The notes below the pieces were generated by a model. It worked only from the letters and a program-made list of their open reading frames with translations. It searched no databases and had not been told where the DNA came from. Made by a program: the position numbers and the translations under genes. Of a DNA stretch of 46,410 bases, positions 4,928-19,628 are shown piece by piece (position 1 is the stretch's first letter; every line of letters starts with the position of its first letter). Location: contig DWYI01000031.1 of assembly GCA_019118765.1 (NCBI GenBank), positions 1 through 46,410 of the forward strand, given 5' to 3'. Source of the DNA: Candidatus Allofournierella merdavium (GTDB lineage: Bacteria > Bacillota > Clostridia > Oscillospirales > Ruminococcaceae).

Positions 4928-7011
4928 TCAGTTCTGGCCGCAGGGGCAACTGCCGGGTACGGGATCGTTCAGCAGCTGGTAGATGCGCTGCCAGGTCTGG
5001 CGGTCCACCACACCGGTGACCGGCAGGCCCAGCCCCTCCTGGAACAGCCGCACCGCCTGCTCGGTGGCTGTGCCGTAGACGCCGTCCACCGGCACGAACT
5101 CCGCCGCGCAGTAGAGCACCGCCACCTGGTTCATCAGCGTCTGCAGCTGCATCACCGCGTTGCCCGCGCTGCCCAGGGCCATCACATAACCGGGGTACTC
5201 CGGCCCCGCCGCCGCCGCGGCCTCCTCGCTGCCCGAGGCCGCCAGGCTGATGAAGGTGGCGGACAGGGCGTTCCAGACCGTCTCATCGGCCACGCCGGTG
5301 ACCGGCAGGCCGAACTCCTGCTGGAAGGACTCCAGCGAGGCCCTGGTCAGCGGGCCGAACTCGCCGTCGATGCCGCCGGGAGACTGGACCTCGTCGTAGA
5401 AGTAGCCGATGTACTCCAGCAAAAACTGCAGCCAGGCCACATTGTCCCCTTGGGCGCCCTCGACCAGATCGACCCCCGGCCAGGGCTGGAGGTTGTAGGC
5501 CAGCAGCAGGCCGTCCTGGCCGCGGAGCACCTGGCTCTGCTGGTAGAGCTTTGCCCAGGTGGCGGGGCCGATGACCCCATCCTGGGTGAGGCCGAACAGC
5601 TTCTGGAAGGCTTTCACCGCGGTCTGGGTGGCGGTGCCGAACTCGCCGTCGATGGCGATGCGGGGGATGGAGGAGTAGTAGGCGCTCATCAGCACCAGAT
5701 AATACTGGGCCTCCCGCACGGCGCGGCCGCTGCTGCCCAGCCGCAGGGGGCTGCCGGGGTAGGTGCCGGGGCGCTGGTCAGGGGCCAGCAGCTGGTTGGT
5801 GACGTCGGCGTAGACCTGGTAGAGTTTGCGCCAGGTGGCGGGGCCCACCACGCCGTCCGCCGTGAGGCCGAACTCCCGCTGGAAGGCTTTCACCGCCGCC
5901 TCGGTGCCGGAACCGAAGATGCCGTCCACCGCCGGGGCGGGGATGGAGGAATAGTTGCTGGCGGCGATGCGCAGCCAGAACTGCACCTTGCGCACGTCGT
6001 CGCCCCGGCTGCCCACCCGCAGCGCGGTGCCGGGATAGCCGTCGTCCGAGGAGTTGATGTCGTTTTCCAGGCTCTGATACTCGGCCCAGATGGCGTCCCA
6101 GGTCATGCGGCCCACCACGCCGTCCACCGTGAGGCCGTACTTTTGCTGGAAGGCTTTCACCGCCGCCTCGGTGCCGGCGCCGAAGATACCGTCCACCGCG
6201 AGGTCCGGCAGGCCGGTCTCGAACTCCGACAGCTGCTGCAGCCAGAACTGCACCTGCTCCACGCTGTTGCCGGTGTCGCCCCGGCGCAGGGCGGTGCCGG
6301 GGTAGCCGCTGCCGGTGATGGTGTCCTGGCTGCCGGTGGGTTTTTCGCCCTCGCTGGTCAGTTCCGCCAGCTTCTTCACGCTGACGTAGATGTAGCTGAT
6401 CTTGTACCAGGTGGAGCGGCCCACCACCCCGTCGGCGGTGAGGTTGAACTGCTTCTGGAAGGCCTTCACCGACGCCTCGGTGGCCGCGCCGAACACCCCG
6501 TCGGTGCCGGGATCGCCGAAGGCGGGGTAGTTCTTGGCGATGCGGGTGAGCTGGCGCTGGATGGTGCGCACCGCCTCGCCGGAATCGCCCCGGCGCAGCG
6601 CCGTGCCGGGGTAGCTCTGGGGGATGCCCTGGATGTTGTTTGTGCGCACGATCTCGATGTTGTTGCCGTAGTAGTAGCGCAGGATCTGCAGGGCGTTCAG
6701 CCCCTCGCCCGCCCGGTCCACCGTGCCCCACTGCTTCATGCCCGGGCAGGTGACGGATTTGCCGTCGCAGTACTCGGTGTAGTAGGGCTCGATGGTGCCG
6801 GTGCGGCGCACGTAGGTGTTGAAGATGTCGTCGGTGATACGCTCCATCGGCTCGAAGATGTCCCGTCCGTGGACGTAGTACTGGTCGTAGCTGGTGGAGT
6901 TGGTGATGTTGAAGTTGTAGCCCTTGCTGGGGTACCACTCGGTGAAGATGCGGTTGAGGGCCAGGCTGATCTGGGCGTGGATGTTGGCCCGCAGGGCCTG
7001 CTCCGGCCAGG
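4928..7011 (-). CDS. sleC: C-terminal part of an interrupted sleC-type spore cortex-lytic gene (no start codon)
   Basis: The frame begins at the left junction of the inserted element (TGG at 7007-7009) and runs 692 codons beyond it to the stop at 4928. First comes a SpoIID-like region typical of SleC proteins (PEQALRANI, ALNRIFTEWY, FNITNSTSYDQ, EYCDGKSVTCPGMKQWG, LQILRYYYG). Six tandem peptidoglycan-binding repeats follow, each opening with YPG or WPG and containing DG.(F/Y)G..T, LFG/EFGL and TW. There is no usable start: the nearest in-frame GTG (7018-7020) has no ribosome binding site, and a strong terminator lies just upstream. Across the whole stretch there is no stop or frameshift, unlike a decaying pseudogene. 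The missing N-terminus is at 19053-19628 in the same orientation, and joining at the shared CCTGG restores an 884-residue protein. C. perfringens SleC has about 440 residues; the extra length here is the additional repeats. Confidence 0.88.
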
Positions 7012-7015
7012 CGGG
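7002..7015. other. Left attachment-like junction of the element (att core)
   Basis: TCCGGCCAGGCGGG on the plus strand matches TCCGCCCAGGTGGG at 19048-19061 in 12 of 14 positions, with CCAGG (7007-7011) identical. To the left, the sequence codes for the SleC family motif PEQALRAN; to the right it no longer resembles SleC. The exact crossover inside the 5-bp core cannot be fixed by reading alone. Confidence 0.7.
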
Positions 7016-7045
7016 GCGCACCCATGCCCGCGGCCCCGCGCACAG

Positions 7046-7085
7046 AAAGCCCCCGGGGCCGAACGTGAACGGCCCCGGGGGCTTT
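7046..7085 (-). terminator. Strong terminator between DUF4091 gene A and the sleC C-terminal part
   Basis: A perfect 16-bp stem (AAAGCCCCCGGGGCCG at 7046-7061, complement at 7070-7085) has an 8-nt loop; on the minus strand it ends in CTTT. It stops minus-strand transcription from the element before it reaches the sleC remnant, which should therefore be silent while the element is in place. Confidence 0.85.
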
Positions 7086-7109
7086 GGCTCCTCTTTTGTT
7101 CTTCGCGCC

Positions 7110-8663
7110 TCAGCCCAGGCGCTCCAGCAGGCGGCGGCGGGCGGCCAGCAGCACTTCGCCGCTGGCCGTGTAGCGGGTGGAGGAGGCGCAGACCTCCTGT
7201 GCCAGGGCGTCGGCCGCCGCCGCGTCGCTCCTTTGCAGCTGATACAGCAGCTCGCAGTCCTCCGCGCCGCCCCGCTGGGCCTCGTACCGGGCGCTGCGCA
7301 GGGGGCCGTCGGGGCCGGGGTAGACGATGTGGGCGTCGCCGGCGGGCAGCAGCGCCCCCTTGTGGGGGCAGCAGGCGCTGTGCCAGATGTCCCCGCCGAT
7401 GTAGTAGTTGAAACCCCAGTGCAGGTAGCCGGAAAACCGCTCGCCGGCGGCCAGCCAGAGCAGCCCCCGGCTGACGGTGAGGGGCAGATCCATGCTGCGG
7501 TTGGCCGCCCGCCCGGCGGGGAAGGCGCAGGTGTAGAACCACACCTCCTCCCCCGCCGCCTGCAAACGGCGGAAGGCCTGTTTGTTCTTTTCCCAGGTGT
7601 CCAGCTTGGGCACCCACACGTCCACCCCGCCGCCCAGATTGGTGGCCTCCACCGCGTCCACGATGGGCGCCCCCGGCAGGAATTTGCGGCAGACGGCCGC
7701 CAGGATGCGGTAGGCGGCGGTGTTGTGCACCTGGGGCTCGTCCGCCAGGGCCTGCGCCACCCGCCCCTGCCAGCCGTTTTTCCGGACGACCTCGGCCCAC
7801 CGGGAAAAATACAGCCGCAGCTGGAAGTACCCCTCCTCGCCGGTGACGGGGAGGGTCTCGTCCCAGAAGGGGTAATACTCGGCGCCGGTCCACTCGCTCC
7901 AGTGGGCCACATGGCCGCCGCAGAGCCACCGCGCGCCCTCCTCCAGGGCGATGCGGCCCACCTCCTCGGCCAGGGAGAAGTCGAAGCCGGCGAGTTTTCC
8001 CTCCCGCCGCACCGGCCGGCCGGCGGGCAGCAGGATGTGGGTGCAGCGCATTTCCAGCTGGGCGCGGATGTAGCGGCGCATCAGCCGCCGCCACGCCTCT
8101 GTGCCCTCGGCGGCCCCGTGCTGGGCGGCGATGTTCTCGTAGCAGAAGAAGTTGAGCATCCCCAGCCTGCCCGCGCCGGCGGCGGGCACCTGCGCGGCGT
8201 ACACCCGGCACTCCACCGGGCACACCGCCCGCTGGCCGCCCCGCTCCAGCGTCAGCGCGCCGCAATAGCGGCCGGGGGCCTGGTCGGGCGGGACCTCCAC
8301 GCTGATCCAGAAGGCCCTTCCCTCCGCCGGCCGCCCCGGCTCGCAGGGGAGCAGGGCGTCGTACACCGCAAAGGGGGCCCGCCGGGTGACGTAGTCCCGG
8401 CAGGCGCCGTAGTCGGTGGTGGTCATCAGGGTGGGGGCGGTGTTCTCGTTCACCCCCACCTCCCGCAGGCGGTAAAGGCGCGCCGGCGGGCCGCCGGCTT
8501 CCCGCCAGGCGAAGGAGAGCCGGCACGCCCCCTCCCCCGCCGAAAGCAGCAGCTGAAAGGCGGCATGGCCGCCCCGGGGCGCGTCCAGCCGGGCCGCCCG
8601 CGCCCCGGCGAGGGGGCTGTCCGGGTACAGCCAGGTGCAGTCGTCGCGCACGCAGAAGTCCAT
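7110..8663 (-). CDS. DUF4091/GH123-like glycoside hydrolase candidate A (517 aa)
   Basis: The protein resembles the DUF4091 group, whose catalytic domain is related to glycoside hydrolase family 123 (beta-N-acetylgalactosaminidases with substrate-assisted catalysis). An N-terminal beta-rich region (about 1-165) precedes a barrel-like region. A paired acidic motif, LADEP (Asp308/Glu309), sits where GH123 enzymes have their Asp-Glu pair, and YLHWGFNYY is a recognisable C-terminal family motif. No signal peptide is seen, so it probably acts inside the cell on imported material. The ATG at 8663 follows the histidine kinase stop by 5 nt and has GAGAGGTG upstream. It is the last gene of a regulator-kinase-hydrolase run on the minus strand, and a paralogue ends the divergent importer run. 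The substrate is unknown; an amino-sugar glycan is a guess from the family. Confidence 0.75.
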   Translation of the reverse strand: MDFCVRDDCTWLYPDSPLAGARAARLDAPRGGHAAFQLLLSAGEGACRLSFAWREAGGPPARLYRLREVGVNENTAPTLMTTTDYGACRDYVTRRAPFAVYDALLPCEPGRPAEGRAFWISVEVPPDQAPGRYCGALTLERGGQRAVCPVECRVYAAQVPAAGAGRLGMLNFFCYENIAAQHGAAEGTEAWRRLMRRYIRAQLEMRCTHILLPAGRPVRREGKLAGFDFSLAEEVGRIALEEGARWLCGGHVAHWSEWTGAEYYPFWDETLPVTGEEGYFQLRLYFSRWAEVVRKNGWQGRVAQALADEPQVHNTAAYRILAAVCRKFLPGAPIVDAVEATNLGGGVDVWVPKLDTWEKNKQAFRRLQAAGEEVWFYTCAFPAGRAANRSMDLPLTVSRGLLWLAAGERFSGYLHWGFNYYIGGDIWHSACCPHKGALLPAGDAHIVYPGPDGPLRSARYEAQRGGAEDCELLYQLQRSDAAAADALAQEVCASSTRYTASGEVLLAARRRLLERLG

Positions 8664-8668
8664 GGCGT

Positions 8669-10465
8669 TCACCTCTCGTCGTCGGAGGGGGCCGTGTCCG
8701 CCGCCGGCACACGGATCGTCACCCGCGTGCCCCGGCCCGGCTCGCTCTCGCAGAAAAGGCCGTAGCCCGGCCCGTAGGCCAGGTGCAGCCGCTCGTTGAT
8801 GTTGCGCACCCCGTAGCCGCCCTTGGTGTTGGCGCTGGAGGCGTCGGCGGAAAAGTTGGCCCGCAGAGTCTCGGCGTCCATGCCCACACCGTCGTCCTCC
8901 ACCGTGATGACCAGGTCCGCCCCCCGCCGGAAGGCGGCGATGCGCAGGCGGCCGGTCTTGTCCGGCCTTTCGAAGATGCCGTGGATGATGGCGTTCTCGA
9001 TGATGGGCTGGAGCACGATCTTGATGATGGGGCACGCTTCCACCCCCGGCTCCACCTCCCACTCCACCTGCACCCGGTCCTCAAAGCGCATATTCTGGAT
9101 CTCCACATAGAGCCGGGCGTGCCGCAGCTCGTCCGCCAGGGGGATGACCTCCCGCCCCCGGCTGAGGGACAGCCGGTAGAACCGGGCCAGGGCGTTGACC
9201 ATCTGGCTGATCTCGGGCACGTTGCGGGTGATGGCGGTGCAGTTGATGAGGTCCAGGGAGTTGTAGAGGAAGTGGGGGTTGATCTGGGCCTGAAGGGCTT
9301 TCAGCTCCAGGGCCTTGATCTGCTGGCCCTGCTCCAGCTTTTCGTCCATCAGGGTGTCGATGCGCCCCATCATGTTGCTGAAGCTGCGCATCAGCTGGCC
9401 GATCTCGTCCCGGCCCTGGGGCTCCACCCGGGCGGACACGTCCCCCCGCTCCACCGCGTGCATGGTGTCGTTGAGCAGATAGAGCCGCCGGGTGATGGAC
9501 TGGCTGAGCCGGTAGGCCAGAAAACAGGCCGCCGCCGCCAGCAGCGCCACCACCGCCAGCATCTCCAGCCGCAGCTCCCGGCTGGTGCGGAAGATGTCGT
9601 CCCGGGGCAGGGCGGCGGCCAGCGTCCAGCCGCAGTTTTCCAGCGCGACCGCCTGGGCGCGGCAGGGGCCCTGGGGGGTGTCCACCTCGGCCCAGCCCGG
9701 CGCGCCCGCCACCGGCAGCGAGCCGCTCAGCTGCTGCGCCCGGTCAGGGTCGGAGGCGGTGAGCACCCGGCCGCCGTCCAGCAGCAGCACGGTGCCGTTC
9801 CGGGTGATGGTGCTGCGGCTCACCGCGGCGCTCACCCGGTCGGCGGCGATGTCCACCCGCAGGATGGCCAGCGGCTGCTGCACATGGCTGGGGTCGTAGA
9901 GCAGGCGCATCAAAGAATACCACTCCCGCTCGCCCTCCGGCTCATCGGCAAAGTCGGCGGGGCCGAACCAGCAGGCCACGCCCCCGTCCCGGAAGGCATC
10001 CATCCAGGCGCTGCCCTCCACCGAGGCGAGGGAGACGATGTCGGCGGAGTTGGTGTAGAGATAATCGTTGCTCACATACAGCCGGATGCGGTCCACCCCG
10101 GACATGGAGCGCAGATAGTCGAAGGTGGTGGAGATGCGGTCCCGGTCGTTGAGGCGCTGGATGTAGGTGGTGCTTTCCGGGTCGCTGGCCGCCAGGGTGT
10201 AGAGGGCGGGGTCCATGGTGAGGATGTCCGTCACCTGGGGCAGGCGGGCCAGCAGGTCCTCCACGGCGGTGTGGGTGTCCTCAAAGGCCTTCTCGGCGGC
10301 GGAGAAGGTCTGCTCCTCGATGACGGTGTTGATGCGGTGGAAGGCGTAGAGGGTGAAGGCCCCCAGGGGCAGCACCAGCAACAGGAAAAAGATGCACAGC
10401 AGCTTGCCCCGCAGCCCCACGTCCAGCAGCAGGGTGCGCCCGGCGGCGCGCAGTTTATTCTTCAT
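8669..10465 (-). CDS. YesM-like sensor histidine kinase (598 aa)
   Basis: This is a membrane sensor kinase of the LytS/YesM type that responds to extracellular carbohydrates. One N-terminal membrane helix (about 20-45) is followed by an extracellular sensor region of about 250 residues, a second helix (about 305-325), a HAMP segment (DTMHAVERGDVSARVEPQGRD..), the phospho-acceptor box LQAQINPHFLYNSLD, and a HATPase domain with PIIENAIIHG, EDDGVGM and GYGVRNINERL. The length is normal. Its start overlaps the 3' end of the response regulator gene by 11 nt, so the two are translationally coupled. It probably phosphorylates that regulator, which faces the sugar importer genes across a divergent promoter region. 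The ligand is not evident; it is presumably the sugar bound by the lipoprotein at 13700-15289. Confidence 0.9.
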   Translation of the reverse strand: MKNKLRAAGRTLLLDVGLRGKLLCIFFLLLVLPLGAFTLYAFHRINTVIEEQTFSAAEKAFEDTHTAVEDLLARLPQVTDILTMDPALYTLAASDPESTTYIQRLNDRDRISTTFDYLRSMSGVDRIRLYVSNDYLYTNSADIVSLASVEGSAWMDAFRDGGVACWFGPADFADEPEGEREWYSLMRLLYDPSHVQQPLAILRVDIAADRVSAAVSRSTITRNGTVLLLDGGRVLTASDPDRAQQLSGSLPVAGAPGWAEVDTPQGPCRAQAVALENCGWTLAAALPRDDIFRTSRELRLEMLAVVALLAAAACFLAYRLSQSITRRLYLLNDTMHAVERGDVSARVEPQGRDEIGQLMRSFSNMMGRIDTLMDEKLEQGQQIKALELKALQAQINPHFLYNSLDLINCTAITRNVPEISQMVNALARFYRLSLSRGREVIPLADELRHARLYVEIQNMRFEDRVQVEWEVEPGVEACPIIKIVLQPIIENAIIHGIFERPDKTGRLRIAAFRRGADLVITVEDDGVGMDAETLRANFSADASSANTKGGYGVRNINERLHLAYGPGYGLFCESEPGRGTRVTIRVPAADTAPSDDER

Positions 10466-11564
10466 GGCAGCAAAGATTCTCCCGGTAGAGTTTGGGCGGG
10501 ATGCCCACTTCCTTGGTGAACAGTTTTACAAAATACTTGCCGTCGGCGTAGCCCACCGCGTGAGCCACCTGGTAGAGTTTGAGGCCGGGGTCGGCCAGCA
10601 GGGCCTTGGCCCGCTCCATCCGCAGTTCGGTGAGTTTGCCGTTGATGGTGCGCCCGCTGTTCTTTTTGTAGGCGCTGCACAGATAGGTGTGCACAAAGCC
10701 CAGGTCCCCCGCCACCGCCTGCACCGTGAGGGTGCTGTCCGACAGGTGGGCCGCCAGATATGTATCCACCCGTGTGACCAGGTCCTGCGCGTTGCTCTCC
10801 ACCGCCTGAAAATAGGTCTGCATGGCATCGGTGAGGGCCTGCCACAGCAGCCGCAGGGTGGGCTGCCTGGCCGCGGTGTAGAGCAGGTAATCCCCCTGCT
10901 GGGTGACGGCGCTGATGCCCCGGCTCTCCGCCGCCGCCAGCAGCGCGAAGACGATCTGGCAGTAGAGGTTGCGCACCACCTCCGGCGGGGTGCCCTCGCA
11001 GCGGCGGATGTCCCGGTAGAGGCGGGCGGTGAGTTCCATCGCCTCGGCTTTGCGCTTGTGGCGGATCAGGTTGCCCAGGGCGGTGAAGGTGGCCTTCTCG
11101 TAGGCGTACACCTGCCCGTTGTTCGGCGCCGTCAGCTCGCCCTCCTCCCCCCGATAGAACACCAGATTCGGGTCGGGCCGGGCGCGCTGCTCCAGCTCCG
11201 CCGTGACCTGGCGCAGCACCGCGGCGATCTCCTCCAGGTCGATGGGCTTTTCCACATAGCTGGCGGCCCGTAGCTTGATGGCCCCCTTCAGGTACTCCTT
11301 GTCGGTGTAGCCGCTGAGAAAGATGAACTGGCAGTCGGGGTACATCTCCCGCACCGCCCCCGCCAGTTCCAGGCCGTTCATTCGGGGCATCTTCACGTCG
11401 CTGATGATGATGTCCGGCCGGTGGGCCCGGGCCATCTCCAGCGCCTGGGCCCCGTCCTCGGCGGCGTCCACCCGGTCCACCCGCAGTTCTTCCCAGGGCA
11501 GGCGGTCCCGCAGGATCTCCCGGGGCATCTTCTCATCGTCCGCCACAAGCACGGAAAAGCGCAC
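10455..11564 (-). CDS. YesN-like response regulator, receiver plus AraC-type HTH (369 aa)
   Basis: The N-terminal receiver domain (about 1-120) has the acidic pocket (VADDEKMP), the phosphorylation site in DIIISDVKMPRMNGLE, and the conserved Lys in SYVEKPIDLEE. A middle region follows, then a C-terminal AraC/XylS double helix-turn-helix (VQAVAGDLGFVHTYLCSAYKKNSGRTINGKL...YQVAHAVGYADGKYFVKLFTKEVGIPP). It uses a GTG start at 11564 with AGGGGGAGA just upstream. Partner of the kinase that follows it; together they probably activate the divergent importer operon, whose promoter lies within about 170 bp. Regulators of this kind normally act on the adjacent sugar uptake genes. Confidence 0.9.
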   Translation of the reverse strand: MRFSVLVADDEKMPREILRDRLPWEELRVDRVDAAEDGAQALEMARAHRPDIIISDVKMPRMNGLELAGAVREMYPDCQFIFLSGYTDKEYLKGAIKLRAASYVEKPIDLEEIAAVLRQVTAELEQRARPDPNLVFYRGEEGELTAPNNGQVYAYEKATFTALGNLIRHKRKAEAMELTARLYRDIRRCEGTPPEVVRNLYCQIVFALLAAAESRGISAVTQQGDYLLYTAARQPTLRLLWQALTDAMQTYFQAVESNAQDLVTRVDTYLAAHLSDSTLTVQAVAGDLGFVHTYLCSAYKKNSGRTINGKLTELRMERAKALLADPGLKLYQVAHAVGYADGKYFVKLFTKEVGIPPKLYRENLCCHEE

Positions 11565-11611
11565 GGCGGTCTCCCCCTCTCTCGGTCACTGGGTTTGTAT
11601 ATTCTACCTAT

Positions 11612-11640
11612 AATATAGACTGAAATTTCCGACGCTTCAA
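11612..11640 (-). promoter_or_regulatory. Sigma-A promoter of the regulator-kinase operon
   Basis: On the minus strand, TTGAAG (11640-11635), a 17-bp spacer and TATATT (11617-11612). It lies about 48 bp before the GTG start of the response regulator. Confidence 0.65.
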
Positions 11641-11712
11641 TGGATTTTCGTACAAAAAATAAATTTTTCCCAAAACAGCATAATCTTTCCCTCCTATCAT
11701 AATCCGCTCCCG

Positions 11713-11741
11713 TTGTTTTGCGCCGGCGGGTCTGCTACGAT
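11713..11741 (+). promoter_or_regulatory. Sigma-A-like promoter of the sugar importer operon
   Basis: TTGTTT (11713-11718), a 17-bp spacer and TACGAT (11736-11741). The -10 is weak, which fits a promoter that needs the neighbouring AraC-type regulator. The AT-rich stretch 11621-11700 upstream is the likely operator zone, but I could not define a repeat with confidence. Confidence 0.5.
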
Positions 11742-11780
11742 GGTGGTGGACGAAAAAGACTTGCGAAGGAGGCCGGACCG

Positions 11781-12707
11781 ATGAAACATGGCAAACATCC
11801 CTTCCTCCGGGATCTGAAAGAGAACCGGGTCAAGTGGCTGATGCTGCTGCCGGCGGCCATTGTGGTGATCCTGATGTGCTACATCCCCATGGGCGGCATC
11901 GTGCTGGCCTTCAAGGAGTACAACTATCACGACGGCATCTTCGGCAGCCCGTGGGTGGCCTTCAAGAACTTTGAATACTTCTTCCAGTCGGGCAAGGCGT
12001 TCAGCGTCACCCGCAACACCATCCTGTACAACATCGCCTTTCTGCTGGTGAACACCTTTTTGCAGATCACCTGCGCCATCCTTTTGTCGGAGCTGGCGGG
12101 CAAGTGGTTCAAGCGCATCACCCAGTCGGTGATGTTCTTCCCCTACTTCATCTCCTGGGTGGTGGTGGGGGCCTTCATCTACAACATGTTCAACTTCGAG
12201 TTCGGCGCGGTGAACACCTTTTTGCGCTCGGTGGGCCTGGACCCGGTGGACATCTACTCCAACAAGGTGGTCTGGCCCTTCATCCTCATCGGGGTGAGCG
12301 CCTTCAAGAACGTGGGCTACGGCACGGTGATGTACCTGGCCAGCATCATGAACATCGACGGCCAGCTGTACGAGGCCGCCGACCTGGACGGCGCGAACAT
12401 GTGGCAGAAGATCCGCCACATCACCCTGCCGGGCATCCGGCCCACGGTGGTGATCCTGTTCCTTCTGGCCATCGGCACCATCATGAAGGGCGACTTCCAG
12501 ATGTTCTGGCAGGTCACCGGCAACAACCCCATGGTGCTGGACGTGACCGACGTGATCGACACCTATGTGACCCGCTCGCTGCTGCAGCTGCAGGAGTTCG
12601 GCATGACCAGCGCGGCGGGGCTGTACCAGTCCGTCTTCTCCTTTTTGCTGGTGCTGCTGGCCAACAAGCTGGTGAAGAAGGTGGAACCCGACTACGCGCT
12701 GTTCTGA
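11781..12707 (+). CDS. LplB-type sugar ABC transporter permease (308 aa)
   Basis: This is an integral membrane permease of the MetI-like superfamily, carbohydrate uptake group 1. It has six predicted membrane helices and the cytoplasmic EAA loop YEAADLDGANMWQKIRHITLPGIRP, through which it contacts the ATPase. The start is ATG 11781 with AGGAGG at 11768-11773. It pairs with the next gene, a YtcP-type permease, and the solute-binding lipoprotein. No ATPase gene is in the cluster, which is usual for this family because a shared MsmX-type ATPase encoded elsewhere energises several importers. Substrates of LplB/YtcP systems are typically complex or uronic acid-containing oligosaccharides; the specific substrate here is not known. 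Confidence 0.9.
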   Translation: MKHGKHPFLRDLKENRVKWLMLLPAAIVVILMCYIPMGGIVLAFKEYNYHDGIFGSPWVAFKNFEYFFQSGKAFSVTRNTILYNIAFLLVNTFLQITCAILLSELAGKWFKRITQSVMFFPYFISWVVVGAFIYNMFNFEFGAVNTFLRSVGLDPVDIYSNKVVWPFILIGVSAFKNVGYGTVMYLASIMNIDGQLYEAADLDGANMWQKIRHITLPGIRPTVVILFLLAIGTIMKGDFQMFWQVTGNNPMVLDVTDVIDTYVTRSLLQLQEFGMTSAAGLYQSVFSFLLVLLANKLVKKVEPDYALF

Positions 12708-12721
12708 AAGGAGGCGGCCTC

Positions 12722-13636
12722 ATGGCAAGCAAGACCAAAACCGGCAAAAAGCCCGTGGGGCGGGACCGGGTCATCTTTGACGCCGTCTCCGCGGTGGTGC
12801 TGACGCTGCTCTCGGCGTTCTGCCTGCTGCCCTTCCTGCTGGTGCTCAGCGGCTCCTTTTCCGACCAGACCTCCATTTTGACCCACGGCTACCAGCTCAT
12901 CCCCGAGACCTTCTCGCTGGACGCCTACAAGACCCTGTTCAAGATCCCCGGCGATCTGCTGCGGGCCTACGGCGTGACCATCTTCGTCACCGTCACCGGC
13001 ACCTTCCTGGGGCTTTTCTTCACCAGCATGGCGGCCTATGTGCTGGCCAGCCACACCTTCCGCTACCGGTACCAGGTGTCCTTCTTCTTCTACTTCACCT
13101 CCATCTTCGGCGGCGGCCTGGTGCCCTGGTACATCTTCAACACCAAATACCTGCACTTCCACAACAGCATCATCGCGCTGATCCTGCCCATCCTCATCAA
13201 CGTGACCTACCTGCTCATCCTGAAAAGCTACATGGCGGGCATCCCCGAGGCGCTGTATGAATCCGCCCGGCTGGACGGCGCCGGCGACTTCACCATCTAC
13301 CTGCGGGTGGCCATGCCCCTGTGCAAGGCGGGCCTTGCCACGGTGGGCCTGTTCATCGCCCTGAACTACTGGAACGACTGGTACGACGCCATGCTGTTTC
13401 TGGACGAGGGGCGCAGCGATCTGTACCCACTGCAATACTTTTTGAACAACATCCTCACCAAGGCCCAGGCCATCGCCCAGGCGGCCGCCCGCAGCGGCCT
13501 GCCCATGAGCGAGGTGCCCAGCGAACCCATGAAGCTGGCCATGACGGTGGTGGCCACCGGCCCCATCATCCTGCTCTATCCCTTCCTGCAGAAGTATTTC
13601 GTCAAGGGCGTCACCATCGGCGCCGTGAAAGGCTAA
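12722..13636 (+). CDS. YtcP-type sugar ABC transporter permease (304 aa)
   Basis: The second MetI-like permease subunit. Six membrane helices are visible, with the EAA loop YESARLDGAGDFTIYLRVAMPLCKAGL near residue 190 and a C-terminal YPFLQKYFVKGVTIGAVKG tail that is highly typical of this group. The start is ATG 12722 with AAAGGAGG at 12707-12714, 14 nt after the stop of the first permease. The two permeases would form the membrane channel of one importer. Length and arrangement are normal. Confidence 0.9.
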   Translation: MASKTKTGKKPVGRDRVIFDAVSAVVLTLLSAFCLLPFLLVLSGSFSDQTSILTHGYQLIPETFSLDAYKTLFKIPGDLLRAYGVTIFVTVTGTFLGLFFTSMAAYVLASHTFRYRYQVSFFFYFTSIFGGGLVPWYIFNTKYLHFHNSIIALILPILINVTYLLILKSYMAGIPEALYESARLDGAGDFTIYLRVAMPLCKAGLATVGLFIALNYWNDWYDAMLFLDEGRSDLYPLQYFLNNILTKAQAIAQAAARSGLPMSEVPSEPMKLAMTVVATGPIILLYPFLQKYFVKGVTIGAVKG

Positions 13637-13699
13637 CGGTAAGAAGCCGCGCACCGAGGTGCACGGCAGTGTATAATTCACTTATAAGGAGGAAAAACC

Positions 13700-15289
13700 A
13701 TGAAAAAATCAGCGAAACTGCTGGCGCTCGTTCTGGCCCTGGTGCTGGTGCTGACCGCCTTCGCCGGCTGCGGAAGCTCACCCAGTTCCGCGGCCACCCC
13801 GTCCGGCACGTCCGGCGCGTCCGGCTCCACCGCGGCCGCCGGCCCGGACATCTCCGAGGAAGTCACCCTCACCATGTACCTGATCGGCGACCGCCCGGTG
13901 GACAACGACATGGTGTTCGAGAAGATCAACGAGCGGCTGAAAGAGGCCATCAACGCCACCATCGACGTGAAGTTCATGAGCTGGAGCGAGTATGAACAGA
14001 AATACCCGCTGATCTTCGCCTCCGGCGAGGACTGGGACATCATCTTCACCGCCGACTGGTGCTTCTACAACGCCCAAGCCACCAAGCAGGGCTTCTGGGA
14101 GATCACCCCCGAGGCGCTGGAGACCTACGCCCCCATGACCGCCGAGACCATGTACCCCGAGGCCTGGGAGCAGGCCAAGGTGGACGGCAAGGTCTATATG
14201 CTGCCCATGAACTACCAGGAACTCACCGCCTACGTCTGGATGGCCCGGGGCGATCTGATGGACAAATACAACATCGAATCGCTGGACACCTTTGACGGTG
14301 CCGAGCAGTATATGCAGGCCATCGTGGACAACGAGCCCTCCATGATCCCGCTGGACGTGGGCTCCGACTACGACCGCCAGTTCGTGTTCGATCTGATCTG
14401 GAACGTGGAATCCAACGCCAAGGGCGACGACCGCTACGCCGTGCTGCCCCCCACCAACCTCATCACCTGCGTGGGCGAGAACGACCCCGAAGCCAACGTG
14501 ATGAGCACCCTGGACGCGGACATCTTCATGAACACCCTGAACAAGGTGAAGGACTGGCGTGACCGGGGCTTCTGGAGCCGCAACGCCGTGGTCAACGCCC
14601 AGAACAACACCGAGAGCTTCCAGGCGGGCAAGTCCGCCCTGGCCGTGATGAACATCAACACCGCCAAGAGCCTCTACGCCACCCTGCAGGCCGAGCACCC
14701 CGAGTGGGACGTGCGGGTGTTCGACGCCATGAACGGCGCGCCGGCCACCATCCAGTCCTATCTTGCCAACGGCATGAGCATCTTCTCCAAGTCCAAGAAT
14801 CCCGAGCGGGCGCTGATGGCCCTGGACTACCTGCGCAACGACGAGACCTGCCACAACCTGTTCTGCTACGGCATCGAGGGCGTGCACTGGGAGGCCGTGG
14901 GCGACACCGGCCTGAAGTCCCTGCCCGAGAGCACCAACTACGCCTATGACAGCAACTGCAACTGGGGCGTTCGCAACGACAAGTTCTGGCGCACGGTTGA
15001 GGGCGGCATCCCCAACGCCGAGGAGCTGACCGAGAACTGGAAGGCCACCGCCCGCAGCGGCCGGTACCTGACCTTCGTCTTCGACGACTCCGCCGTGAAG
15101 AACGAGGTGGCCGCCGTGAGCGAGATCTACAACTCCGACTACAAGCTGCTGCAGCTGGGCTTCACCGATGACCCCGAGGGCGACGTGGCCAAGCTGAAGA
15201 CCAAGCTGGAAGCCGCGGGCTCCGCAACGCTGCAGGACGCCTTCCACACCCAGGCCCTCGCGTTTCTGGAGACCCATCCCGTAGAATGA
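13700..15289 (+). CDS. Extracellular sugar-binding lipoprotein of the ABC importer (529 aa)
   Basis: The N-terminus is a lipoprotein signal peptide (MKKSAKLLALVLALVLVLTAFAG, then the lipobox Cys), followed by a Ser/Ala/Thr/Gly linker and a large substrate-binding fold (VTLTMYLIGDRPVDNDMV..., FASGEDWDIIFTADWCFYNAQATKQGF). It resembles the DUF3502/LipO-type binding proteins that go with LplB and YtcP permeases. It is anchored in the outer leaflet of the membrane and captures the sugar for import. The start at 13700 has AAGGAGG at 13686-13692. Two hairpins follow the stop codon, so this mRNA segment may be stabilised relative to the downstream hydrolase. Confidence 0.9.
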   Translation: MKKSAKLLALVLALVLVLTAFAGCGSSPSSAATPSGTSGASGSTAAAGPDISEEVTLTMYLIGDRPVDNDMVFEKINERLKEAINATIDVKFMSWSEYEQKYPLIFASGEDWDIIFTADWCFYNAQATKQGFWEITPEALETYAPMTAETMYPEAWEQAKVDGKVYMLPMNYQELTAYVWMARGDLMDKYNIESLDTFDGAEQYMQAIVDNEPSMIPLDVGSDYDRQFVFDLIWNVESNAKGDDRYAVLPPTNLITCVGENDPEANVMSTLDADIFMNTLNKVKDWRDRGFWSRNAVVNAQNNTESFQAGKSALAVMNINTAKSLYATLQAEHPEWDVRVFDAMNGAPATIQSYLANGMSIFSKSKNPERALMALDYLRNDETCHNLFCYGIEGVHWEAVGDTGLKSLPESTNYAYDSNCNWGVRNDKFWRTVEGGIPNAEELTENWKATARSGRYLTFVFDDSAVKNEVAAVSEIYNSDYKLLQLGFTDDPEGDVAKLKTKLEAAGSATLQDAFHTQALAFLETHPVE

Positions 15290-15300
15290 CCACACCCATC

Positions 15301-15389
15301 GCGGGGGAGGCGGGCGCGTCCCGCCTCCCCCGCTGCCTTTCCTCCCCTGATGCGCAGCGGGGCGGGCCCGTCCTCCCGGCCCGCCCCGC
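15301..15389 (+). other. Two strong intercistronic hairpins after the lipoprotein gene
   Basis: Hairpin one: 14-bp arms at 15301-15314 and 15320-15333. Hairpin two: 11-bp arms GCGGGGCGGGC (15357-15367) and complement (15379-15389). Neither has a T-run, so they look like mRNA-stabilising structures that raise the binding protein over the downstream gene rather than full terminators. Confidence 0.55.
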
Positions 15390-15434
15390 CGCGCGTTCGG
15401 GGGCCCGCCATCCGACCCAACGGGGGATCTTTTT

Positions 15435-17102
15435 ATGACGAACTATGAATTTCTTTTGACCGACAGCCTGGAAAAGGTGCTGCCCGACCGGCGGCCCGCC
15501 GCCGCCTACCCGGGACCGGTGCGGCTTTTGCGCAACCAGCGGTGGGCCTTCCAGCTGGCCTGCACCTGCCGCAACGACGACTTCGGCGAGACCTCCACCC
15601 TTTTTTCTCTGAAGTGCGGCGGTACGGCGAAAAAGGCGGCGGAGCTGTTCCGGGTGGAGCTGGTGCCCTGCGACTATCCCTGCCATGGCACCTGGGACGA
15701 AAACTACCTCACCACCCGCCCCGGCCTGCTGCCGGACCTGCTGCGCCCCGCCGGGTGGGAGGAGGCCTTCAAGGCGGTGCCCGCCCAGTGGCGCAGCCTG
15801 CGTTTTGTGCTGGACGCGGCGAAACTTGAACCCGGCCCCTTTGACCTGACGCTGGAGGTCATCGGCCCGGAGGGCGAGCCGCTGGCGGCCTTTGCCCTGG
15901 AGGGAGAGGTGCTGGACCAGGCGCTGCCGCCCCCGACCCTGCTGCAGACCCAGTGGTTCCACGCCGACTGCCTGGCGGACTACTACCATCTGCCGGTGTT
16001 CAGCGAGGAGCACTGGCGCGTCCTGGACAACTTCATGGCCAGCGCCGCCGCCCACGGCGTGAACATGCTGCTGACCCCGGTGTTCACCCCGCCGCTGGAC
16101 ACGGCGAAGGGCGGCGAGCGCACCACGGTGCAGCTGGTGGACGTGGCCCTGGAGCAGGGGGAATGGCGCTTCGGCTTTGACAAGCTGCGCCGCTGGGTGG
16201 CCATGGCCCGCCGCCACGGCATCACCGAGATCGAGGTGGCCCACCTGTTCACCCAGTGGGGGGCGGAATTTGCCCCCAAAGTCATGGTGCACACTCCCCG
16301 GGGCCCCGAAAAATACTTCGGCTGGCACACCCCGGCGGTGGGCGGCGAGTACACCGCCTTTCTGCGGGCTTTCCTGCCCGCGCTGAAGGCCGAACTGGAC
16401 GGCCTGGTGGGGCTGGAGCATGTGTGGTTCCACATCTCCGACGAGCCCCACGACCACGAAAAGGAGACCTACGCCGCCGCCAAGGCCACGGTGGCCGACC
16501 TGCTGGCGGGCTGCCACGTCATCGACGCCCTCAGCAGCTACGACATCTACCGCCAGGGCATCGTGGAAAAGCCGGTGGTCTGCTGCGACCAGATCCAGCC
16601 CTTCGTGGACCATGGGGTGAACGGGCTGTGGACCTACTACTGCGAGGTGCAGGCCCTGGCGGTGCCCAACCGGTTCATGGCCATGCCCAGCGCCCGCTGC
16701 CGCGTGATGGGGGCGCTGCTCTATCAATACGACCTGGAAGGGTTTTTGCACTGGGGCTTCAACTTCTACAACGCCCAGCGCTCGGTGCGGCCCATCGACC
16801 CCTTCCGGGTGACCGACGCCGGGGAGGCCTTCCCCTCGGGGGACGCCTTCCTGGTCTACCCCGCCCCGGACGGCACCGCCTGGGGCTCGCTGCGGGGGGA
16901 GGCGCACCGGGAGGCCCTGCAGGACCTGCGGCTGCTGCGGCTGTGCGAGGCGCGGGCCGGACGGCAGCGCACCCTGGCCCTGCTGGAGGAGGCCGCCGGC
17001 GTGCCGGGCCCCCTCACCTTCACCCGCTACCCCACCGACAAGGCCTTCTTTGATCGCCTGTGGGCGGGGGCGCTGGCCCTGCTGGAGGCCCCGTCCCGGT
17101 GA
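15435..17102 (+). CDS. DUF4091/GH123-like glycoside hydrolase candidate B (555 aa)
   Basis: A paralogue of the protein at 7110-8663, with the same order: beta-rich N-terminal part, barrel-like catalytic part, and the C-terminal motif FLHWGFNFYN. The candidate catalytic pair lies in HISDEPHDHE (about Asp336/Glu337), the place of the Asp-Glu pair in GH123. No signal peptide is visible, so a cytosolic role on imported glycans is likely. The start is ATG 15435 with only a modest GGGGGAT ribosome binding site. It is the last gene of the importer run and ends before a clear terminator. The presence of two divergent paralogues, one in each operon of the element, suggests that the imported glycan needs two related cleavage steps. 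Substrate and activity are unproven. Confidence 0.75.
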   Translation: MTNYEFLLTDSLEKVLPDRRPAAAYPGPVRLLRNQRWAFQLACTCRNDDFGETSTLFSLKCGGTAKKAAELFRVELVPCDYPCHGTWDENYLTTRPGLLPDLLRPAGWEEAFKAVPAQWRSLRFVLDAAKLEPGPFDLTLEVIGPEGEPLAAFALEGEVLDQALPPPTLLQTQWFHADCLADYYHLPVFSEEHWRVLDNFMASAAAHGVNMLLTPVFTPPLDTAKGGERTTVQLVDVALEQGEWRFGFDKLRRWVAMARRHGITEIEVAHLFTQWGAEFAPKVMVHTPRGPEKYFGWHTPAVGGEYTAFLRAFLPALKAELDGLVGLEHVWFHISDEPHDHEKETYAAAKATVADLLAGCHVIDALSSYDIYRQGIVEKPVVCCDQIQPFVDHGVNGLWTYYCEVQALAVPNRFMAMPSARCRVMGALLYQYDLEGFLHWGFNFYNAQRSVRPIDPFRVTDAGEAFPSGDAFLVYPAPDGTAWGSLRGEAHREALQDLRLLRLCEARAGRQRTLALLEEAAGVPGPLTFTRYPTDKAFFDRLWAGALALLEAPSR

Positions 17103-17182
17103 GACCGGGCCGGGGGAAAGAGTCCCCGCCCCATGGCGCTGCCCCCCGGCGCCATAGGCCCCGTGCCCCTGCCTGCCCTTTG

Positions 17183-17213
17183 CCGCCGCCCCTTTGCCGG
17201 GGCGGCGGTTTTT
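17183..17213 (+). terminator. Terminator of the importer operon
   Basis: Stem CCGCCGCCCC (17183-17192) with GGGGCGGCGG (17199-17208), 6-nt loop, then T5 (17209-17213). It insulates the recombinase operon from the sugar operon. Confidence 0.9.
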
Positions 17214-17225
17214 CCGTTTGCGGGG

Positions 17226-17255
17226 GGCATGGCCCGGGTCTCTTTTTCATACCAT
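17226..17255 (+). promoter_or_regulatory. Possible sigma-E/sigma-K-type promoter of the recombinase operon
   Basis: CATACCAT at 17248-17255 matches the B. subtilis sigma-E -10 consensus (CATACAAT) at 7 of 8 positions and is one base from the sigma-K -10 (CATANNNTA). The -35 candidate 14 bp upstream (GGCATGGC, 17226-17233) is weak, sharing only four bases with the sigma-E consensus. No sigma-A promoter was seen between the terminator and the small gene. This is suggestive only. Confidence 0.3.
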
Positions 17256-17302
17256 TGCAGAAAGGGGCGAAACACCCCGCTGCGATGAGAGGGGGGCGCG
17301 CC

Positions 17303-17476
17303 ATGGCCGCCGATGTGCGCTACGAGGTGCGGGAGGTCTTTCGGTCGGACGACCCGCAGGCGCGGGCCGCCGCGCTGGAACGGCTGGCCGGGGAGTACCG
17401 CCGGCTGCTGCTGGCCCGGTGGCGGGAGACGGGCCCCGCCCGGGAAGAGGAGGACGAAGGGGGGCGCGCGCCATGA
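17303..17476 (+). CDS. Small charged protein overlapping the recombinase start (57 aa)
   Basis: The frame runs from ATG 17303, preceded by GAGGGGGG at 17288-17296, to a TGA that overlaps the recombinase start as ATGA. The product is short, Arg/Glu-rich and likely helical (EVFRSDDPQARAAALERLAGEY then RRLLLARW), ending in an acidic tail. I recognise no family. Tight translational coupling to a large serine recombinase makes it a candidate accessory factor, for example a recombination directionality factor. The SPbeta factor SprB, which drives excision during sporulation, is also a very small protein encoded near its integrase. That comparison concerns size and position only; no sequence similarity is claimed. 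Confidence 0.6.
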   Translation: MAADVRYEVREVFRSDDPQARAAALERLAGEYRRLLLARWRETGPAREEEDEGGRAP

Positions 17477-19026
17477 GAGCGGCGATCTACTGCCGGCTGA
17501 GCAAGGAGGACGAGGGGGCGGAGGGCGCCGAGTCCGAGAGCATCCAGAACCAGCGGTCCATGCTGCTGCAATACGCCGCCGCCCACGGCTACGAGGTGCA
17601 GGGGGTCTATGTGGACGAGGACTACTCCGGCGCGGACCGGGAGCGCCCGGCCTTCAACCGGATGCTGGCGGCGGCGGAACAGGGGGCCTTTGAGGTCATC
17701 CTGGCCAAGACCCAGTCCCGCTTCACCCGGGACATGGAACTGGTGGAAAAATACCTCCACGGGGCGTTCCCCCGGTGGGGGGTGCGGTTCATCGCCGTGG
17801 TGGACCAGGTGGACACGGCGGACGCGGCGGGCAAAAAGAGCCGCCAGATCAACGGGCTGGTGAACGAGTGGTATCTGGAGGACCTGTCCAACAACGTGCG
17901 CTCGGTGCTGACCCACAAGCGCCGGGCCGGGCGCTACATCGCCGCCTTCGCCCTGTTCGGCTACCAAAAGGACCCGGCGGACAGCGGCCATCTGGTGATC
18001 GACCCCGCGGCCGCGGCGGTGGTGCGGCGGGTGTTCGCCCTCTATCTGGCGGGCAGCGGGGCGGCGCGGATCGCCCGCCTGCTGAACCAGGAGGGGGTGC
18101 CCGCGCCGTCGGAATACCGGCGGCGGCAGGCCGCCGGGCCGGCGGGCGATTCCCGGCCCGGCGGGGCGGTGTGGGGCAAGGCCGCCGTCTACCGGATGCT
18201 CACCAACCGCACCTACGCGGGCGATCTGGAGCAGGGCCGCCACCAGCGGGTGAGCTACAAATCCAAGCAGACGGTGTGGCTGCCCCGGGACCAGTGGATC
18301 GTGGTCCCCCACACCCACGAGCCCATCATCGACCCGGAGCAGTTCGCCCAGGTGCAGCGGCTGCTGGCCCGGCGCGCCCGCAGCGGCGGCGGCGGGCAGG
18401 TGAACCCGCTGGCGGGCCGGGTGGTCTGCGGGCTGTGCGGCGGCGGCATGGAGCAGACCTGCTCCGGCTCTGCGCCCCGGGGCGGCCAGGGCCCCCGCCG
18501 GTATTTCCGGTGCCGGATGTCCCAGCGGGACCCGCGGCGCTGCCCCGGCCAGCCCTACATCCCGGCGGAGGACCTGCAGCGGCTGGTGCTGGAGCGGGTG
18601 CGGGCGCGGATGGCCGCGCCGCTGCAAGCGGCGCTGGCGGGCGGGGACGCGCCAGACGCCGCCGACGGGCGGGAGCAGGCGGCGCGCCGGGAACAGCAGC
18701 GGCTGGACCGGGAGATCGCCCGCCGCCGCCGCGCCCTGGAGGAGCTCTATCTGGACAAGTGCGCCGGCGCGGTGAGCGCCGAGCGGTACGCCGCGCTGGA
18801 CCGGGCCTTTTCCGAACAGCTGGAGGGGCTGACGGCCCGGCGGGCGGCGCTGGAGGGGCAATGCGCCCCCGCCGGGGCGGGGCAGGCGCTGGCGCGGTGG
18901 CTGGAGCGGGCGGCGGCGCTGGAGGCGCCGGACCGGGCGCTGGTGAGCCTGCTGGTGGAGCGGGTGGTGGTGTACCCGCCCGACTCCGCCGGGGCGCGGA
19001 CGGTGGAGATCCACTGGACGTTTTAG
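17473..19026 (+). CDS. Large serine recombinase (517 aa)
   Basis: Domains in order: resolvase catalytic domain (about 1-150) with nucleophile Ser10 in IYCRLSKEDEG, the Q.R motif in IQNQRSMLLQY, and SRFTRDMEL; recombinase DNA-binding domain (about 165-290, including FGYQKDPADSGHLVIDP); a zinc ribbon with Cys319, Cys322, Cys347 and Cys357; then a coiled-coil region (about 395-460) as in large serine integrases. The length is normal and the frame is intact. The start is ATG 17473, coupled by ATGA to the small gene upstream; an upstream in-frame extension has no support. The stop codon overlaps the stop of the truncated sleC frame on the other strand, about 27 bp from the right att core. Enzymes of this family cut and rejoin short att sites and need a partner factor for excision. 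The skin (SpoIVCA) and SPbeta (SprA) recombinases are of this type. Confidence 0.92.
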   Translation: MRAAIYCRLSKEDEGAEGAESESIQNQRSMLLQYAAAHGYEVQGVYVDEDYSGADRERPAFNRMLAAAEQGAFEVILAKTQSRFTRDMELVEKYLHGAFPRWGVRFIAVVDQVDTADAAGKKSRQINGLVNEWYLEDLSNNVRSVLTHKRRAGRYIAAFALFGYQKDPADSGHLVIDPAAAAVVRRVFALYLAGSGAARIARLLNQEGVPAPSEYRRRQAAGPAGDSRPGGAVWGKAAVYRMLTNRTYAGDLEQGRHQRVSYKSKQTVWLPRDQWIVVPHTHEPIIDPEQFAQVQRLLARRARSGGGGQVNPLAGRVVCGLCGGGMEQTCSGSAPRGGQGPRRYFRCRMSQRDPRRCPGQPYIPAEDLQRLVLERVRARMAAPLQAALAGGDAPDAADGREQAARREQQRLDREIARRRRALEELYLDKCAGAVSAERYAALDRAFSEQLEGLTARRAALEGQCAPAGAGQALARWLERAAALEAPDRALVSLLVERVVVYPPDSAGARTVEIHWTF

Positions 19027-19628
19027 CCCTTTGCGGGTTTGGTCGCGTCCGCCCAGGTGGGATATACCTCGCTGGAGGCCACGTTGGCGATGTACTTGCG
19101 GAAGCTCACCGTCACGTTCTGGGCGCTGGCCGCGGGCCGGCCCAGATGCACCGTGATGGTCTCGGGGATGATGGGCGCGGTAAGCACCGCCGGCACCGGC
19201 TCGCACAGCTGCACCGGCGCGGTGCTGGGCACCCCTTCGGGGCGGTAGAGGGCATGGGGCGGCACCTCGAAGGTGTCCGGCAGGGGGGCGGGCGCGCCCA
19301 GCCGCTGCATGGGCCGCATCTCCAGCTGGGCCAGCGACACCTGCCCCGCGAACACCTGCAGGCCGTCCAGCGTCACCGTCTGGTAGCCCTCCTTGTCCGC
19401 CGTCAGGTTCCACACGCTGTAGGGCCGCTGCACCGCGTCCTCGTCCAGCGAGAGGGCCGCCGGCGGGGCGGACAGTTCAATGTCCCGGGCGTTGCCCTCG
19501 TCGTCGGTGTACACTTCCACGACCTGTGCCGACGTATCGTCGGCGTTCTGTATCCGGATGCGGACGTTCGGCACCGGCGCGCTCTGGCGCGCCGCGTAGG
19601 TCTGCACCCGCAGGATCCCGTTGCTCAT
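19023..19628 (-). CDS. sleC: N-terminal part of the interrupted sleC-type spore cortex-lytic gene (201 aa as it stands)
   Basis: The first 192 codons are typical SleC N-terminus: an opening NGILRVQTYAARQSAPVP with a carboxypeptidase-regulatory-like beta domain, DDEGNARDIELSAPP, NLTADKEGY, then IPETITVHLGRP and YIANVASSEVYPTW. The similarity stops abruptly at TGG (19053-19055). The last nine codons, ADATKPAKG, come from the element and end at a TAA that overlaps the recombinase stop. The continuation (PEQALRAN...) lies 12 kb away at 7006-4928 in the same orientation. The start ATG 19628 has AAAGGAG upstream. I saw no convincing sigma-specific promoter before it. SleC-type enzymes are exported precursors deposited at the cortex and activated at germination to degrade cortex peptidoglycan; the truncated product made before excision should lack that activity. 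Confidence 0.9.
   Translation of the reverse strand: MSNGILRVQTYAARQSAPVPNVRIRIQNADDTSAQVVEVYTDDEGNARDIELSAPPAALSLDEDAVQRPYSVWNLTADKEGYQTVTLDGLQVFAGQVSLAQLEMRPMQRLGAPAPLPDTFEVPPHALYRPEGVPSTAPVQLCEPVPAVLTAPIIPETITVHLGRPAASAQNVTVSFRKYIANVASSEVYPTWADATKPAKG
19048..19061. other. Right attachment-like junction of the element (att core)
   Basis: TCCGCCCAGGTGGG matches 7002-7015 in 12 of 14 positions, with the CCAGG core at 19053-19057. To the right is sleC N-terminal coding sequence; to the left is element sequence containing the end of the recombinase gene. In a predicted excised circle the minus strand would read CCGCC-TG-GGCGG across the core, an inverted repeat around a non-palindromic TG, which suits a serine recombinase site. 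Confidence 0.65.

Follow-up and report, generated by a model that had tools for sequence, protein, structure and literature searches.

Why does the spore cortex-lytic gene sleC of Candidatus Allofournierella merdavium lie in two pieces 12 kb apart, and could the two pieces become one gene again? The window, that is, the whole 46,410-nucleotide stretch analysed here (assembly GCA_019118765.1, contig DWYI01000031.1), holds both parts on either side of an intervening element. A sequence-only reading had proposed that this element splits the gene and that its deletion would rejoin the two parts in frame. Both frames, their order and orientation, the CCTGG at both breaks and the length of the deletion were confirmed. 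The features of the split are as follows.

19053 to 19628, minus strand: sleC 5' part, codons 1-192, ending SSEVYPTW
4928 to 7006, minus strand: sleC 3' part, 692 codons plus stop, starting PEQALRAN, with peptidoglycan-binding repeats
7007 to 19052, no strand: sleC-intervening element, 12,046 bp, splitting sleC after codon 192
19053 to 19057, minus strand: CCTGG core at the junction with the sleC 5' part
7007 to 7011, minus strand: CCTGG core at the junction with the sleC 3' part

Neither the 192 codons of the N half nor the 692 codons of the C half contain an internal stop, and the frame of the N half runs 9 codons into the element to a stop at 19023. Removal of the 12,046 bp restores the reading frame and yields one sleC of 884 codons (192 + 692). 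The empty site is found in all four congeneric genomes compared (G001-G004), in which sleC is uninterrupted and joined exactly at the split codon. In the alignment with the congener SleC proteins (75-86% identity), the N half of the window corresponds to the beginning of the protein and the C half resumes at the very next codon. The flanks of the congener genes, galM and a homologue of 4225-4911, are also those of the window (4/4). Over residues 1-357, the SleC of a congener matches a solved structure, chain 9h68_A ('Spore cortex-lytic enzyme pre-pro-form'), with E 5.7e-75. Among the proteins listed, the nearest that bear a name are from Candidatus Allofournierella and Fournierella. The possibility, raised by the sequence-only reading, that a second intact sleC exists was not borne out, as no other full-length copy was found in the organism's own assembly (92 contigs, 91.9% complete) and the other two places are partial matches. 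The stretch 7007-19052 is a mobile element, inserted site-specifically after codon 192 of the one sleC copy detected, which it splits.

The element carries its own recombinase, whose stop codon is separated from the sleC 5' junction by 26 bases, together with a small upstream frame and recognizable ends.

17473 to 19026, plus strand: large serine recombinase with Resolvase, Recombinase and Zn_ribbon_recom domains
17303 to 17476, plus strand: 57-amino-acid frame directly upstream, overlapping the recombinase start, candidate recombination directionality factor
17248 to 17255, plus strand: CATACCAT, resembling a mother-cell sigma -10 box, no -35 match
19034 to 19043, minus strand: attachment (att) arm ACCAAACCCG, one mismatch to the consensus ACCAAACCCA
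7020 to 7030, minus strand: opposite (right) att arm, degenerate, 4 mismatches to TGGGTTTGGT

The domain matches of the recombinase are strong (Resolvase, E 1.8e-23; Recombinase, E 1.2e-24; zinc ribbon, E 1.2e-11). At the element ends, arms of the types ACCAAACCCA and TGGGTTTGGT point inward to the CCTGG core. With a consensus picked after the element ends had been inspected, at most one mismatch is seen at 9 of 14 left ends, the window included, and at 6 of 15 right ends.

The arrangement recurs in other genomes. The search covered 297 genomes of the taxonomic family, drawn from a larger group, and 30 of them matched the recombinase at E 1e-100 or better. A full-length match with at least 54% identity was present in 12 genomes, window included, and sleC is split in every one (12/12); by tblastn the identity to the window recombinase is 52-63% for the 11 others. 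In G207 the sleC part is 2.2 kb away from the recombinase, and G051 has a second, partial recombinase match for which no target was recognized before the contig end. With the addition of a Subdoligranulum metagenome-assembled genome (MAG; L058) and Subdoligranulum variabile TSDC17.2-1.1, 14 elements have both junctions, and all 14 (the window plus 13; in 6 of them the two sides are on separate contigs) interrupt the same sleC codon. With the same codon hit in 13 genomes besides that of the window, chance is excluded. CCTGG marks the element end in 14 of 15 right junctions; a Gemmiger MAG (L060), with a single side visible, has GGTGG instead. Eight elements are bounded on one contig, at 12.0, 7.9, 7.9, 9.9, 3.0, 3.0, 3.9 and 32.0 kb, one of them lying in a circular 386-kb record from a named strain. 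Carrier isolates with a name include S. variabile TSDC17.2-1.1, Gemmiger formicilis An812 and Faecalibacterium sp. An121.

Is the interrupted gene still in use? No stop codon is present in either part of six split sleC genes, nor in the C part of six more. In two species pairs, the synonymous divergence (dS) of the recombinase is close to that of the flanking genes (G113/G191, 0.098 vs 0.07-0.13; G029/G209, 0.137 vs 0.16-0.17), which indicates that the element was inherited from a common ancestor. Over the same divergence, the two parts of the split gene have ratios of nonsynonymous to synonymous change (omega) of 0.099 and 0.068 in G113/G191, and of 0.160 and 0.041 in G029/G209, where the C part comprises 206 codons only owing to a second break in G209. 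The split halves have thus been kept under purifying selection in two species pairs with an inherited element. Both parts of the split S. variabile gene have a near-identical uninterrupted counterpart in a public protein, P0142 (933 aa), which represents 863 sequences clustered at 90%. The N part agrees with it in 249 of 250 residues, and the C part is 99.9% identical to it over 676 residues; one sleC allele therefore occurs both with the 32-kb element and uninterrupted. Among the 183 SleC homologues listed as matches in two protein searches, 28 are C parts with a short foreign leader, 129 have an intact junction and 26 lack the junction motif searched. SpoIVA was found in 21 of 23 genomes tested, with a partial match in the window's genome.

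More distant relatives of the recombinase (36-49% identity) sit in two other genes, cotJC, encoding the spore-coat manganese catalase, and the gene of a PRK06851-type dwNTPase (CD3298-type). Across many Lachnospiraceae and Oscillospiraceae, cotJC is interrupted at a single conserved position (loci include L045-L053, L063, L066, L081, L086, L103, L107, L130 and L131). In 8 of 8 loci chosen for holding both cotJC parts, the parts have the same orientation and are 2.9-7.9 kb apart; L109 and L124, outside the eight read, hold both parts too. Another sister clade splits the dwNTPase gene, the CD3298 homologue, near the conserved VDGTAPH motif (loci include L039, L040, L061, L062, L064, L067, L079, L092, L099 and L114), some rows being assigned through mutual similarity of the junction sides and the reading of two. 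Flavonifractor plautii ATCC 29863 is one carrier of a dwNTPase element. A tree of 44 chosen recombinase rows resolves one clade per target, with support of 94/95 for sleC, 97/96 for the dwNTPase and 99/97 for cotJC; it includes 12 of 26 dwNTPase rows and 12 of 48 cotJC rows, with L195 and L196 added and L059 dropped because no target was recognized before the contig end. The preceding tree had 110 rows, 21 of them without a target, and in it L026 was labelled sleC by an N half 2.2 kb away. Four other recombinases of the window's genome fall outside these clades. Of the ten recombinase relatives matched in that genome, none of seven judged by eye on the downstream side lies in sleC, cotJC or the dwNTPase gene.

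The three targets appear to have a compartment in common. We take cotCB and cotD of Clostridioides difficile, which adjoin cotJB-type genes, to be the counterparts of cotJC. In excerpts of two studies on C. difficile (PMC3789822, PMC3738446; published work is cited from excerpts throughout), sleC is sigmaK-dependent, the catalase operons cotCB and cotD are sigmaK-dependent, and CD3298 is listed under sigmaE. Loss of CD3298 leaves spores empty of calcium dipicolinate (PMC10449524, PMC10949312). By analogy with C. difficile, sleC, cotJC and the dwNTPase gene would all be mother-cell genes.

The regions upstream of the sister recombinases point in the same direction. With similar upstream regions taken once (8-mer overlap below 10%), by which common descent is not fully removed, the pattern ATA-N15-17-CATA...T precedes the recombinase in 17 of 23 dwNTPase elements and 17 of 30 cotJC elements (34/53 sister elements), against 0.4 and 0.9 expected and a maximum of 3 in 200 random sets. 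The mapped sigmaE promoter of C. difficile spoIIID is quoted as ATA-N16-CATATATA, and a mother-cell -10 box as CATATTAT. Three of four counts with wrong spacing are at background: N4-8 gave 3/23 (dwNTPase) and 3/30 (cotJC), and N24-28 gave 3/23 and 10/30, the last equal to the random maximum. Among altered-letter controls, TAT-N14-18-CATA, which overlaps the CATAT -35, was found in 12/23 dwNTPase regions (random maximum 6) and 5/30 cotJC regions; ATA-N14-18-ATAC was slightly raised at 7/23 (maximum 5) and reached 8/30 (maximum 8); ATA-N14-18-TATC (3/23, 6/30) and AAT-N14-18-CTAA (0/23, 3/30) were within background. Upstream of the sleC-clade recombinases, the shorter CATA..AT is present in 8 of 14, three of these rows being close relatives, with 0.9 expected and a maximum of 5 in 60 sets; it occurs in the window (17248) and in S. 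variabile. By eye, all 15 sleC elements and all 5 sister elements read have, ahead of the recombinase, a small protein similar to that of the window; G028 does not. Its position and size make it the best candidate for the directionality factor.

Taken together, the sleC elements are a new family of sporulation-gene-intervening elements, of the kind represented by skin, SPbeta, gin and yin, and their developmental excision is likely. We assign a probability of roughly 0.68 to the reading that, in the sporulating mother cell, the large serine recombinase of the island cuts it out and so rebuilds the 884-codon sleC. The recombinase would join the two CCTGG cores, with the small upstream protein helping as directionality factor. 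If its expression is tied to mother-cell sigma factors, the doomed mother cell would lose the element and make SleC for the spore, and the spore chromosome would retain the element and its cargo. We lean slightly towards a broader proposal, in which a single large-serine-recombinase lineage across gut Clostridia has specialized in genes that serve the dying mother cell alone, namely sleC, cotJC and the dwNTPase gene. Small cassettes, each with a recombinase, a directionality factor and metabolic cargo, would reside in these genes, be excised in the mother cell with restoration of the gene, and be kept in the spore.

A number of results count against mother-cell excision. The full ATA...CATA promoter is missing upstream of the sleC-clade recombinases (0/14 and 0/11), and a looser pattern is at background (1/11). 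Upstream of sleC itself, at the 32 of 40 loci with a visible start, no mother-cell box was found as ATA-N-CATA (0/32) or CATA..AT (0/32), and CATA...T was present in 6/32 with 2.6 expected. No Pfam or PHROG family matched the small protein in the six examples scanned. A third C. difficile manganese catalase, cotG, is sigmaG-dependent (PMC3789822, PMC3738446). In two comparisons involving G140, the omega of sleC is 0.13-0.19 and the dS of the recombinase (0.30-0.34) is about twice that of the flanks (0.15-0.16), so that this element may be a later arrival. In the window, the right att arm is degenerate. The C half of the window has accumulated 17 nonsynonymous to 12 synonymous lineage-only changes, compared with 43:113 in four congeners (Fisher p 0.002). 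All 17 lie beyond residue 147, with none in residues 1-147, and no such excess is seen in the N part of the window or in two flanking genes. This pattern is consistent with a loosening of constraint on the wall-binding repeats in the lineage of the window, or with early decay there. The sleC of this species is represented among the listed proteins by the split form only (P0121), with no excised form, and neither an excised junction nor a circle of the window's element was observed. In viral contigs, a degenerate pattern for the joined ends had no match, a search that tests relatives only since the right arm of the window would not fit it.

Could the element then be an ordinary integrative genomic island, with a conserved stretch of sleC as its bacterial attachment site (attB), sleC inactivated in the carriers and no developmental excision? 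The extra amino acid changes in the C half, the degenerate right arm and the lack of an excised form of the window's element among the proteins listed are what such an island would give, and an intact-junction genome is also present in each of the interrupted genera g19, g26, g32, g55, g81 and g110, as it would be for any mobile element. We nevertheless regard this explanation as unlikely, as the split genes are free of stops in both parts (six genes) or in the C part (six more) and purifying selection has acted on the split gene in two genera while the element was inherited. That the sister recombinases also target spore genes would be unexpected if sites were chosen regardless of function, and the other recombinase relatives of the same genome are not in these three genes (0/7, by eye on the downstream side).

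A second explanation is a reversible population switch, in which random excision and re-insertion in growing cells would leave a fraction of cells with a working sleC, outside any mother-cell control. The same S. variabile allele with and without the element and the lack of a full sigmaE-type promoter in the sleC clade agree with it, as does the yin element, reported in an excerpt to be excised at all culture time points (PMC10747680). The mother-cell-type motifs before the sister recombinases, and the fact that spore genes are targeted, speak for developmental control instead and make the switch improbable. An assembly artefact or mis-join, which the fragmentation of several carrier assemblies and the halves on different contigs in six family genomes might suggest, is refuted by the recurrence of the same codon and core in 14 genomes and by the eight elements bounded on one contig, including that in the 386-kb circular record.

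What, then, does the element carry? Between the sleC 3' junction and the recombinase module, the window encodes the following cargo.

7110 to 8717, minus strand: GH123-type protein
8669 to 10465, minus strand: sensor histidine kinase
10455 to 11564, minus strand: AraC-type response regulator
11718 to 12707, plus strand: ABC transporter permease
12713 to 13636, plus strand: second ABC permease, sugar-type, match below curated cut-offs
13700 to 15289, plus strand: extracellular solute-binding protein
15435 to 17102, plus strand: GH123 protein

The 32-kb element of S. variabile has homologues (55-84% identity) of the kinase, the regulator, the two permeases, the solute-binding protein and one GH123 protein of the window, which indicates that this cargo travels with the element. 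In the 3-kb form (G113, G191), the recombinase and the small protein are accompanied by a single FMN-dependent dehydrogenase. Other cargo includes a choloylglycine-hydrolase-family protein and an MCRA protein in G029, a GH3 protein in L058 and, in G140, an AAA_21 ATPase as well. A prophage and an integrative conjugative element were considered and rejected as identities for the window's element, since the frames scanned, the recombinase and the seven cargo frames, include no phage structural or replication genes and no conjugation genes.

The sequence-only reading had assigned the element to the class of skin and SPbeta. Its own large serine recombinase, the recurrence, the purifying selection and the spore-gene targets of its sister clades uphold the kinship, but no phage gene was found and the gene set for sugar transport, two-component signalling and GH123 proteins places the element nearer gin. 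The gin element in gerE of Bacillus cereus ATCC10987 (PMC5595907) is likewise non-phage, splits a sporulation gene, and has a short repeat at the break and a serine recombinase inside. Its excision rebuilds gerE during sporulation, whereas excision of the sleC element is predicted. At 28.6 kb, gin has three recombinase genes; the element of the window has one such recombinase and a sugar-uptake cargo, and the sleC elements, unlike gin, occur in gut Oscillospiraceae and belong to a recombinase clade with three target genes. The skin element of C. difficile (PMC5025042) is also a large serine recombinase element that splits a mother-cell gene, but it is prophage-like and its target is sigK; its excision requires the small directionality factor CD1234 under sigmaE/SpoIIID, the counterpart in the sleC element being a candidate. 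The yin element in yabG of Clostridium botulinum V73 (PMC10747680) has the same three recombinase Pfam domains and sits in a clostridial spore gene, whose product processes pre-pro-SleC in C. difficile. It is prophage-like and described as unique to one strain, in contrast with sleC elements in 14 genomes, of which that of the window has no phage gene found. SPbeta in spsM of Bacillus subtilis (PMC4191935) similarly rebuilds its split gene by sporulation-time excision but is an active phage, unlike the sleC element, and its hosts belong to another group.

The sporulation-intervening elements in the excerpted literature are few, with sigK, spsM, spoVFB, gerE and yabG as targets. Our search of open-licence literature, over titles and abstract starts of the matches listed, returned no intervening element in sleC, cotJC or the dwNTPase gene, with no query pairing the dwNTPase with intervening elements. 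In the literature so found, as far as the excerpts extend, the target, the host range, the cargo, the minimal size and the multi-target recombinase clade are not described.

Some related loci depart from the simple arrangement. In G137 and G287 (L183, L188, L149, L152), the two sleC parts are on different long contigs, which implies large elements or a rearrangement of the region; in G287, whose element is unbounded, a type IV secretion system coupling protein adjoins the C part. A 'Bacteriophage sp.' clone of 6.9 kb, obtained from human faeces (MT837840.1, L197), has a sleC-type recombinase at 891-2716 adjoining a sleC N part. Near residue 394, sleC has another insertion site. In G028 (L195, 4137-7787) it is occupied by an element of 3.6 kb that encodes a 41% identical recombinase along with a putative manganese efflux pump, and the sleC of G209 (G209:C1:250508-258742) is broken at both sites. 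In G095, G138 and G157, among others, SleC matches of near-normal length cross at least one stop codon, having the appearance of separate N-terminal and catalytic parts or of decayed frames.

If the proposed excision holds, the development of the host would pay for the upkeep of a cassette that has no phage or conjugation genes. The sleC elements add a germination enzyme to the targets of intervening elements, can be as small as 3 kb and carry metabolic cargo, and their recombinase clade extends over many gut genera and also targets two further spore genes. Whether mobile DNA generally finds a safe harbour in genes used by the mother cell alone becomes testable now, and such elements could explain the broken-looking sleC, cotJC and dwNTPase genes in gut genomes whose owners may still sporulate and germinate.

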